Assembly: GCA_002170245.2 (NCBI GenBank)
Contig: NHFN02000017.1
Location: 157,950-221,949, forward strand
Length of the DNA: 64,000 bases
From: Gammaproteobacteria bacterium TMED112
GTDB lineage: Bacteria > Pseudomonadota > Gammaproteobacteria > Magnimaribacterales > TMED112
Reading direction: 5' to 3'
A program made the position numbers and the translations under genes. Of this stretch, positions 33,225-37,131 are shown piece by piece. The first letter of the stretch is position 1; the number at the start of each line of letters is the position of its first letter. Under the pieces are notes generated by a model. The model was not told the DNA's origin and made no database searches. It worked only from the letters and a program-made list of their open reading frames with translations.

Positions 33225-33837
33225 AAGAATATTTTAAATCTCTTTCTGAGTCGGTTAGAGATAATTCAAAACTTGGTCTTGAAAAAAGTTTTTCTTGATA
33301 TGCGCTCAAGCTTGCAAAAGATTTTGTATTTGGCAGGCTCACTCCTAGATATGGAAGCCTATATAAAATTGCAGCCATGTAGCAATCAACCAATGTAAAT
33401 TCATCACTCATGAAGTATGGTTTTTCTTTTAAAACTAATACTATCCCTGAAACTAATCCAACAAGTTCTTTTTTCAATGAATCAAATTCTTTTTGACTAA
33501 TTTTAGGCCTCATCATTCTATCGACAACTGGCAACCAGTCCCTTTCAATTCTGTGAATTAATAATCGACATTCTGCTTTATCATTTGGATAAATTGGCAA
33601 TAACGGGGGATGAGGAAATCGTTCATCAAGATATTCAAGAATTACTCTTGGCTCATATATAGTAACTTCTCGCTCAACTAATACAGGTAATTTGTTGTAA
33701 GGGTTGATCGTTGGCAATTCCTCAGGCATTTTTCCCTCAGGGTCAAATTCCTTTATATCACAAGCAATATCTTTTTCTGCTAATACAATTCTAATCATAT
33801 GACTATGGTGTCCCTTTTCTTCAGAATAAAAAATCAT
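33217..33837 (-). CDS. sspA: Stringent starvation protein A (GST-like)
   Basis: 206 aa; LPTINPYNKLPVLVEREVTIYEPRVILEYLDERFPHPPLLP; downstream of petABC. Confidence 0.92.
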   Translation of the reverse strand: MIFYSEEKGHHSHMIRIVLAEKDIACDIKEFDPEGKMPEELPTINPYNKLPVLVEREVTIYEPRVILEYLDERFPHPPLLPIYPNDKAECRLLIHRIERDWLPVVDRMMRPKISQKEFDSLKKELVGLVSGIVLVLKEKPYFMSDEFTLVDCYMAAILYRLPYLGVSLPNTKSFASLSAYQEKLFSRPSFELSLTDSERDLKYSFN

Positions 33838-34532
33838 TTAAGCTCCTTTGCATATTCTCTATAAAGAAGATTCATCACAGCAGTAAAAACAATAAAAAAT
33901 AGAATTACAAAAACACCATTTTTTTCTCTTGTTATTCGTGCTGGCTCTGCTGCATAAGCTAAAAAGTTAACTAAATCTTTCATTGAATCATCAAATTCTT
34001 CAGCAGTCATTGAACCTTCAGAGATAGAAACTAGTGTACCACCCGTGTCAAGTGCCTGATTGCCTTGTAAGCCAGCAAGCACATTAGGCATAGCAGTTCC
34101 CACATAAACAAGGTTATTTGATCCGGATGTTTGAGAAGGATCTTCATAGAATGTTCTTAAGTAAGTATATATCCATTCATCGCCCCTTACTCTTGTTCTC
34201 AAAGTAAGATCTGGGGCACCAATAGGAGATACATCTGGCATACCAAAAGTCATATGGTCAGCTATTTTTGTATCAGGCGTTCTGATTAATTCTTCTGTAA
34301 TAATGTTTTCAGGAATTACTAAATCTTTTTGCAATCTATTCCATCTCAAAAGTTTTAGCGTGTGGCAGCTTGCACAATAATTCATATAGATACCAAGACC
34401 TCTTTGAAGAGAATAGAGATCATGTACATTGGAGGAAAATGCATCACATTTTTCTAAAGAACCGCAATTATTTTCTCCAGCAGAGAAACCGTATGAACTC
34501 AAAATTAAAAGTATTAGTAATAGTTTTTTCAT
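33834..34532 (-). CDS. petC: Cytochrome c1 of the bc1 complex
   Basis: 232 aa; signal peptide, CASCH heme motif, C-terminal TM, petABC order. Confidence 0.93.
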   Translation of the reverse strand: MKKLLLILLILSSYGFSAGENNCGSLEKCDAFSSNVHDLYSLQRGLGIYMNYCASCHTLKLLRWNRLQKDLVIPENIITEELIRTPDTKIADHMTFGMPDVSPIGAPDLTLRTRVRGDEWIYTYLRTFYEDPSQTSGSNNLVYVGTAMPNVLAGLQGNQALDTGGTLVSISEGSMTAEEFDDSMKDLVNFLAYAAEPARITREKNGVFVILFFIVFTAVMNLLYREYAKELK

Positions 34533-35773
34533 AATCTATCTGGAACTTCTAATGTTTTTTCATATTTTGTGTAAATTGGCATAAGTATAAATGGTGCAAA
34601 GTAAAAAACAGTGCATATTTGAGCTATTATGGTTCTCAGTTCATTTACTGGCTTTGTACCGAGGTAACCTAGTGTTATAAAAGATGCTGCGAAAAGAATC
34701 ATTGCAATTTTGCTATACATCCCCTTATATCTGATACTTTGTACATTTGATCTATCCAGCCATGGAACTACGAAAAGAATCGCTATACTTGCAGCAAAAA
34801 TTATAAATCCTAAGAATTTACTTGTTATACCTAAAAAGGGTATGCCAAAAGTAACTGCCCTCAATATAGAGTAAAAAGGAGCATAGTACCAAACTGGTGC
34901 TATATGTTCTGGTGTTTTAAGGAAATTTGCTTCTTCAAAGTTTGGCTTCTCTATAAAATAACCACCACCTGTTGGAGCAAAGAATACAATGGCAAAAAAT
35001 ACAATAAAGAAAATCCCAATAGCAGGCAATGCACCAAAAGTTTTGTATGGGTGAAATGGAGCTCCATCTAATGGCATACCTTTTTTGTCTCTGTACTTTT
35101 CAATATCCACTCCCTCTGGATTTCCTGCTCCAACCTCATGAAGTGCAAAAATATGAAAAACTACCAGTGCAATCATTAATAGTGGAACAACTACTACATG
35201 TAGTGCGAAAAATCTCGAAAGCGTAATACCTGAAAGGACAAAATCACCTTGAATCCAAACCTGCAAATCAGGCCCTATGAAAGGAATTGCTCCAAATAGC
35301 GACAAAATAACATTTGCTGCCCAATATGACATTTGACCCCATGGAAGCACGTAACCTAAGAACCCTTCTGCCATTAGCAAAAACAGAAGAAAACAACCAA
35401 ATAGCCAGACAAGTTCCTTTGGTTTTTGATAAGAGCCATATAAAAGACCCCTAAACATATGAAAATACATTAAGAAGAAAAATGCACTGGCGCCTGTACT
35501 ATGCATATATCTCATCAACCATCCATATTCAACGTCTCTCATAATATATTCAACGCTTGCGAATGCTCCTTCTTCAGTATTTGTATAAAACATCATTAAC
35601 CATATGCCTGTAACAACCTGGATCATGAAAACTACCATTAATAAAGCCCCAAACAGATAAAAGAAATTTACTTTTTTTGGAACAGGGTGTTTTGTTAAGT
35701 GTCTTTCTAGATTTTCAGTGACAGGTAGTCGTCTGTCTACCCAGCCCATTATTGTATTTTTTTCGCTAGCCAT
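34529..35773 (-). CDS. petB: Cytochrome b of the bc1 complex
   Basis: 414 aa; MRYMHSTGASAFFFLMYFHMFRGL, GYVLPWGQMSYWAANVI, PEGVDIEKYRDKKG, APVWYYAPFYSILRAV. Confidence 0.96.
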   Translation of the reverse strand: MASEKNTIMGWVDRRLPVTENLERHLTKHPVPKKVNFFYLFGALLMVVFMIQVVTGIWLMMFYTNTEEGAFASVEYIMRDVEYGWLMRYMHSTGASAFFFLMYFHMFRGLLYGSYQKPKELVWLFGCFLLFLLMAEGFLGYVLPWGQMSYWAANVILSLFGAIPFIGPDLQVWIQGDFVLSGITLSRFFALHVVVVPLLMIALVVFHIFALHEVGAGNPEGVDIEKYRDKKGMPLDGAPFHPYKTFGALPAIGIFFIVFFAIVFFAPTGGGYFIEKPNFEEANFLKTPEHIAPVWYYAPFYSILRAVTFGIPFLGITSKFLGFIIFAASIAILFVVPWLDRSNVQSIRYKGMYSKIAMILFAASFITLGYLGTKPVNELRTIIAQICTVFYFAPFILMPIYTKYEKTLEVPDRL

Positions 35774-36576
35774 TATGTTAGTTCTCCTATAATTAATGTG
35801 TCTCCTTCGAATGTGTGTGGTGGCACTTCTAAGTTTGTTGGTGCAGGTACCCCTTTGTAAACCCTCCCGGCAAGATCAAATTTAGATCCGTGACAAGGAC
35901 AAAAAAAGCCACCCAACCATTGCTCATCCCAAGCTTTCGGTTCAATTTCAGGATGATATTTGGGTGCACATGACAAATGAGTGCAAACCCCTTTTAAAAC
36001 CGTGAATTTTTCATTAGTTGATCTTGCAACCCCTTCTGAAAGAACAGGGTCTGTTACTCTATTATTCAGTTTCGGAAGGTTTTCTAACGCTTTCGGGGTT
36101 TGATGTACTACAAAAATTGGAGTCCTTCTCCATTCTACAACTGCCATTGCACCTGGCTCTAATTTAGATAAATCAAATTTGACAGAAGCGCCAAGAGCCT
36201 TAGCTCTTTCACTTGGATTCCATGCACTCAAGAAAGGAACGGCAAAACCAGCTACTGTCACTGCTCCCATCAAGCTTGAAGTGATCATTAAAGCCTTTCT
36301 TCTCGTATTATTTACTACTGGGTTTTTTAGCACATCCATTTCTAGGTTTCCATTTAGCTTGTTAAGAGATTTATCTAGAAGTAATTTACTTTTCCATTCA
36401 AACAAAAACTTTTCTGCTTCTCTTTTATCTCTTGTTTTAAGGCTCTTTTTATAAATTTCACCCCCAACATTTAAATAACCCCAATAAAAAGGTGATTTAT
36501 CCCGTTTGTACAGAGACATTCCATCTAATATGTGAATATGTTTTTTTCCTTGCTTGTTTTTGGACATTTTGAACAT
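35773..36576 (-). CDS. petA: Rieske [2Fe-2S] subunit of bc1 with ~79-aa N-terminal extension (alternative start M80 at 36339)
   Basis: CTHLSCAPKYHPE...GGFFCPCHGSKFD cluster motifs and Tat-like TRRKALMITSS; extension MSLYKRDKSPFYWGYLNVGGEIYKKSLKTRDKREAEKFLFEWKSKLL resembles an integrase arm-type N-terminal domain. Confidence 0.93.
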   Translation of the reverse strand: MFKMSKNKQGKKHIHILDGMSLYKRDKSPFYWGYLNVGGEIYKKSLKTRDKREAEKFLFEWKSKLLLDKSLNKLNGNLEMDVLKNPVVNNTRRKALMITSSLMGAVTVAGFAVPFLSAWNPSERAKALGASVKFDLSKLEPGAMAVVEWRRTPIFVVHQTPKALENLPKLNNRVTDPVLSEGVARSTNEKFTVLKGVCTHLSCAPKYHPEIEPKAWDEQWLGGFFCPCHGSKFDLAGRVYKGVPAPTNLEVPPHTFEGDTLIIGELT

Positions 36577-36595
36577 TTAATTCAGTGTTCAAAAT
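36566..36595. repeat. Perfect 10-bp inverted repeat around the petA start codon
   Basis: ATTTTGAACA - TTTAATTCAG - TGTTCAAAAT. Confidence 0.9.
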
Positions 36596-36691
36596 TAGGT
36601 GAAACCGAATTAGTTAATTCCTCTTAAATCTTTATGAGCAGTATTATATACAGAATTTTTTTAAAATAAAAATTTTTTTCTAAATTATCTT

Positions 36692-36740
36692 AAAAAAAAA
36701 GGTTTTGAACATAAATTCGTAAAATTTATTAGTGTTCAAA
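36692..36740 (-). terminator. Rho-independent terminator of rplM-rpsI
   Basis: Minus strand TTTGAACA-CTAA-TAAATT-TTACG-AATTTA-TGTTCAAA-ACC-TTTTTTTTT downstream of the rpsI stop. Confidence 0.75.
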
Positions 36741-36750
36741 GGTTAGGAAA

Positions 36751-37131
36751 TTATCTTTTTGAAAACTGTGGGCTTTTTCTAGCTTTTTTAAGGCCAACTT
36801 TCTTTCTTTCTTTAACTCTTGAATCTCGAGTTAAGTACCCTGCTTTTTTAAGATCAGATCTTAGTTCTGGGTTTTCCTCTAAAAGTGCCTTGGATATTGC
36901 TAACCTTATTGCTCCTGCTTGACCAAAAGACCCTCCACCTTGAACTTTTGCATTTACATCAAAAGAACCATCATTTTTCGTTAGAACTAGTGGTTGCCTT
37001 ACTATCATTTTGGCTACATCTCTGCCGAAGTATTCATCTATACTTTTTTTGTTAATAGTGACAATGCCTGTTCCTTTTGTGAGCTTAACTACTGCTGTTG
37101 CTTCTTTTCTTCTTCCTGAAATAGTACTCAT
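36751..37131 (-). CDS. rpsI: 30S ribosomal protein S9
   Basis: 126 aa; [12 protein letters not shown]...[20 protein letters not shown]...[25 protein letters not shown]. Confidence 0.98.

Follow-up and report, generated by a model that had tools for sequence, protein, structure and literature searches.

Enzymes such as PutA, BirA and NadR carry a built-in DNA-binding domain and repress their own gene or operon, and the isc operon is controlled by IscR. Among integrases, negative autoregulation has been shown for KplE1 IntS, which represses its own promoter via arm-type sites overlapping that promoter, a mode of control predicted for most tRNA-linked integrases as well (PMC2951348). DNA-binding domains of mobile elements have also been repeatedly co-opted as regulators in eukaryotes, giving rise to transposon-derived transcription factors (PMC10027918, PMC8097297), and in chloroplasts the control by epistasy of synthesis adjusts the synthesis of subunits to complex assembly at the level of translation (PMC12449265).

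Here we analysed a stretch of 64,000 nucleotides (the window), part of a 1.02-Mb SAR86 genome, in which the petA gene for the Rieske iron-sulphur protein begins with a recombinase-type domain, and compared it with SAR86-cluster single-cell genomes and metagenome-assembled genomes. Like the autoregulated int genes, of which KplE1 intS is an example, the locus combines a homologous N-domain with cognate repeats just 5′ of the gene; unlike intS, the SAR86 fusions have no recombinase core or catalytic domain and are joined to metabolic enzymes. As with PutA, BirA and NadR, they would be enzymes repressing their own gene or operon, a prediction from site arrangement and constraint only, but they have a different DNA-binding fold of mobile-element origin and stem from repeated independent captures, in which the sites were co-captured with the domain. 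In the repeated recruitment of a DNA-binding domain from a mobile element, the SAR86 case recalls the eukaryotic factors, although it is bacterial, integrase-derived, enzyme-fused and apparently directed in each instance at the gene itself. A logic in which subunit synthesis is tuned to assembly may be shared with the chloroplast system, except that control in SAR86 is presumed to be transcriptional, via the fused DNA-binding domain. No earlier description of such fusions was found in the open-access texts searched; a Rieske–integrase-arm fusion was likewise not known to the first-pass annotation.

Results

The petA open reading frame runs without interruption from 36576 to 35773 on the minus strand (267 amino acids in translation), with the canonical Rieske N-terminus appearing only after residue ~85, both as first annotated: by Pfam, the Rieske Tat segment spans residues 88-122, with the Rieske domain at 183-251, and NCBIfam Rieske_proteo matches residues 91-262. 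The product has the attributes of a bc1 Rieske protein (PetA), namely a Tat/TM segment, the CTHLSC and CPCHGS motifs and petB-petC neighbours, and not those of a functional tyrosine recombinase, since core-binding and catalytic domains are lacking and the remainder is Rieske. The fused gene (35773-36567) comprises an arm-type, i.e. tyrosine-recombinase N-terminal, DNA-binding domain of four strands and a helix (36370-36540), a variable linker (36313-36378) and the Rieske protein proper, with its Tat/TM segment and [2Fe-2S] domain (35776-36312). On the same strand, rpsI (36751-37131) is the upstream neighbour, and petB (cytochrome b; 34529-35773) and petC (cytochrome c1; 33834-34532) follow in the operon. 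Translation had been proposed to start at M1, M20 or M80, none of which withstood the comparison of codons among relatives: M1 is not conserved, with CTG at that codon in many relatives, M80 has no counterpart in most of them, and M20 was rejected in favour of M4 (36567), an ATG kept in every fused copy with TTCAAA immediately 5′ of it.

The extension is a 60-residue domain homologous to the N-terminal DNA-binding domain of tyrosine recombinases, which is how the first-pass annotation had read it. Order-wide and class-wide profile searches linked it to tyrosine recombinases, and an integrase-only profile found it with E = 1.1e-15, along with the domains of other fusions described below (petB, 6e-8; Ior, 2e-8; gltD, 3e-6), in each case in a small local database of open reading frames. 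The closest full-length relative found was a SAR86 tyrosine recombinase (G029). The gene of this recombinase (L037) adjoins a tRNA-Phe-like gene, and five TAACACA repeats precede its start. Queried by itself, the petA domain had no more than weak matches in Pfam, PHROGs and the PDB, and the homology therefore rests on the profiles; the weak matches of the first ~85 residues include DUF6538 and integrase PHROGs, with a score against Pfam DUF6538 (PF20172) of 14.7 bits, under the curated cut-off of 27. The viral contigs searched held no relative of the domain, and an Rfam search returned no relevant match. The proposal was supported by the integrase profile and not by Pfam alone. It also agrees with the predicted fold, a beta4-alpha arrangement (pLDDT 82; strands 10-14, 17-21, 28-34 and 37-42, helix 48-66), which in the model satisfies the description of an arm-type N-domain as a beta-sheet with a C-terminal helix and superposes on phage and viral integrases (probability up to 1.00, TMq 0.55-0.65). 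No fold search with this short domain reached an E-value below 0.001, which we count against our interpretation. The full-length PetA prediction was of low confidence (pLDDT 50) and was used for the N-domain only.

The extension is present in 14 of the 20 genus members with petA, counting one copy with a frame break (G015) and two that are split or cut by contig ends; the other six have a plain petA that starts roughly 10-20 bp past rpsI. Several members evidently do without the fusion, which is therefore dispensable, a point against our interpretation, and rooted trees did not decide between one gain followed by loss and two gains. The relatives' fused proteins have 74-90% overall identity. 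In the codon comparison, pN/pS was 0.20 for residues 2-19 and 0.18 for residues 20-66, as compared with 0.94 for the linker (67-88), 0.13 for the Tat segment and 0.125 for the Rieske part. By this measure the N-domain is under purifying selection and the linker is neutral, and retention in relatives together with the codon-level constraint shows that the extension is not a chance product. The same selection, with the lack of conservation of M80, leaves unsupported the alternative first offered, a dead captured integrase fragment followed by Rieske translation from M80. In G015 (L032/L014), the frame is broken between the N-domain and the Rieske part in an A-rich stretch, possibly reflecting a split gene, a frameshift or an assembly error; this, too, we count against our interpretation.

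Two inverted repeats flank the putative petA promoter. IR2 (TTTGAACACTGAATTAAATGTTCAAA; 36568-36593), a putative operator, abuts the start codon; a conserved TATAAT, the putative -10 box, lies 55 nt before it on the minus strand (36643-36648); and IR1 (TTTGAACAC...TGTTCAAA; 36704-36740), a putative second operator, is located just past the rpsI stop. No match to a -35 box was found at this promoter, which weighs against our interpretation. There are two occurrences of the pattern TTTGAACA-n-TGTTCAAA in the window, none in the shuffles and none elsewhere in the genome, where a looser pattern gave a single unrelated match. IR1 and IR2 lie on either side of TATAAT in 14/14 fused petA loci; the exact repeat is found twice per genome in 11/14 fusion genomes and once in the other three, in which IR1 starts with C. 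Across the 20 genus genomes, the repeats accompany petA only where it is fused and are absent from the petA of unfused relatives. Arm-type domains bind repeated sites near their own gene; at petA, repeats are present and locus-unique, and binding to them is inferred.

The same repeats could act in RNA, with the domain binding a hairpin of its own mRNA at the start codon and controlling translation. Both can fold as RNA hairpins (z -3.6 and -3.9), which we count against our interpretation; IR2, which folds better than shuffles, sits against the start codon, and dsRNA-binding domains are among the weak PDB fold matches. However, sites are also found upstream of TATAAT, in three genomes IR1 has a T-to-C change without compensation, the site of the gltD fusion (see below) is a direct repeat without an RNA fold (z -0.16), and true integrases of these families, which share the site classes, bind DNA. 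The TATAAT-IR2 spacing is 54, 55 or 66 nt and the IR1-TATAAT spacing 24, 46 or 55-57 nt; these steps are near whole helical turns, which suggests recognition of DNA rather than RNA. Translational control by a hairpin is accordingly improbable in our judgement.

Arm-type domains also head other enzymes. Fusion to GltD was found in about 95 genomes of one family (f3), with loci read for ~40 genomes and the remainder inferred from the length of the open reading frame. Its site is a direct repeat GTCATACTATGTCATAC with a 10-bp period, one per genome; the tandem site is present at 35/35 gltD loci, and TGTCATACNNYGTCATAC occurs exactly once in 14/14 fusion genomes, each time ahead of the fused gltD, and in 0/6 unfused ones. 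In two genomes the domain heads indolepyruvate:ferredoxin oxidoreductase, the repeats there being ATACACA, and in four genomes from another order it is joined to cytochrome b, where paired TTACACA clusters occupy both ends of the intergenic region. The repeats at arm-type loci are of the ACAC or GAACA type, ACAC being also found at the arm-type integrases G029 and G321. A PilM-like protein (L110, in G569) is possibly a further fusion: its long N-terminal extension contains a weak recombinase-type domain, and five GTGTTAGAG-type repeats lie upstream; because the domain is weak (integrase profile E 0.1, no Pfam match), it was left out of the count.

A search with PF20172 gave matches in 121/204 genomes of the order and in 0/14 control genomes. 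DUF6538-type domains were found on a 674-aa Fe-S NAD(P) oxidoreductase, on IscS and, in genus g10, on a second Rieske protein (G034 petA; L221/L025), an independent fusion whose recombinase domain belongs to another subfamily and whose sites are GGGTACA. The two separate Rieske fusions are a convergence on the same gene. The G184 Fe-S oxidoreductase, the second Rieske and a 150-aa form with a membrane helix at its C-terminus score above the DUF6538 cut-off; the IscS and G026 oxidoreductase examples score below it. The gene of the DUF6538-IscS fusion opens an isc operon, iscS-iscU-iscA-fdx; unlike in IscR control of such operons, iscR was not found adjacent, and the enzyme itself would regulate. 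Such operons span 2112-4307 in L230 and 2923-5526 in L231, and the L231 operon seems to have its ferredoxin joined to an IscA-like domain in one 244-aa open reading frame. GTACA repeats precede the start of the short membrane-helix proteins (L213-L215, L225, L227, L229), which are possibly membrane-tethered DNA-binding proteins of SAR86.

The sites follow the domain. GGTACA/TGTACC lies upstream of 47/49 DUF6538 loci and of 0/55 arm-type loci, and it occurs 2.64 times per Fe-S-oxidoreductase locus vs 0.06 expected. One of the 47 is a genuine DUF6538 integrase (L223), with sites before its start as at the fusions. By these motif counts, site class tracks domain subfamily and matches the sites before true integrases. 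Nearly all partners are Fe-S proteins, an Fe-S biogenesis protein (IscS) or PetB, which forms a complex with an Fe-S protein, a bias that may, speculatively, reflect a common signal.

The first-pass annotation had envisaged that the domain tethers the bc1 complex to nucleic acid, and one could extend this to a DNA anchor that holds the complex or nascent polysomes at the nucleoid without regulating anything. Rieske N-termini do face the cytoplasm, and a DUF6538 protein with a membrane helix exists. As its mere role, however, tethering fits poorly with sites found essentially only at the gene itself, flanking its promoter, and with the presence of the domain on the soluble enzymes GltD and IscS. 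The promoter-flanking sites found only at petA, and the reappearance of such domains on further enzymes with sites of their own, both overlooked in the first-pass annotation, indicate autoregulation and not merely a tether, which we consider very unlikely as the sole role. Still harder to credit is an inert relic, retained only as a source of promoter and start codon. The fusion did supply a promoter and set petA apart from rpsI, but the domain has low pN/pS and the linker a higher one in six fusion types (petA, gltD, Fe-S oxidoreductase, IscS, petB and the second Rieske), the linker of each type tested being less constrained than the domain or unconstrained, and the repeat sites are conserved although synonymous positions are near saturation.

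Discussion

That enzymes with recombinase heads have matching sites at their own promoters suggests that these genes are self-regulated. For petA, we hold with good confidence that the extension is a captured recombinase domain with its arm sites, serving as a built-in autoregulator, binding and regulation being inferred in the absence of binding or expression data, which counts against it. An integrase 5′ end with arm-type sites would have been captured onto petA as a ready-made autoregulatory module, and, as a general principle, any gene that acquires an integrase 5′ end by splicing would receive the arm sites with it as a ready operator. When Rieske protein has just been made or is in excess, its cytoplasmic N-domain is envisaged to bind both TTTGAACA..TGTTCAAA sites beside the petABC promoter, most likely repressing it and so matching bc1 synthesis to need. 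No route is shown by which a membrane-bound Rieske protein would get to its promoter, which counts against this autoregulation.

The negative sign is likely, yet inferred. It cannot be read from sequence, and IR1 lies upstream of the promoter, such that positive autoregulation or an architectural promoter role is conceivable; the position of IR2 between the presumed transcription start and the start codon is, however, that of a roadblock, and the integrase precedent is negative, making either alternative unlikely, though not negligible. That the fused domain senses assembly or Fe-S state is an inference we regard as possible but doubtful. Equally tentative is the broader idea that streamlined SAR86 cells have largely swapped free Fe-S regulators for enzyme-borne integrase heads, with which enzymes would report the state of their cofactor or assembly to the promoters of their own genes. 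The idea would cover Rieske twice, GltD, a GltD-like oxidoreductase, indolepyruvate oxidoreductase and IscS (in place of IscR). If true, a portable domain-plus-operator module would have spread through metabolism several times independently.

The results suggest that DUF6538, by name a domain of unknown function, has a function in SAR86, and the predicted protein-site pairs are open to in vitro testing. The fusions recur in one abundant ocean group with tiny genomes, marine SAR86, above all in respiratory and iron-sulphur functions, and bacteria may thus gain gene regulation in a single step, by placing the 5′ end of a recombinase gene, together with its sites, onto the gene of an enzyme.
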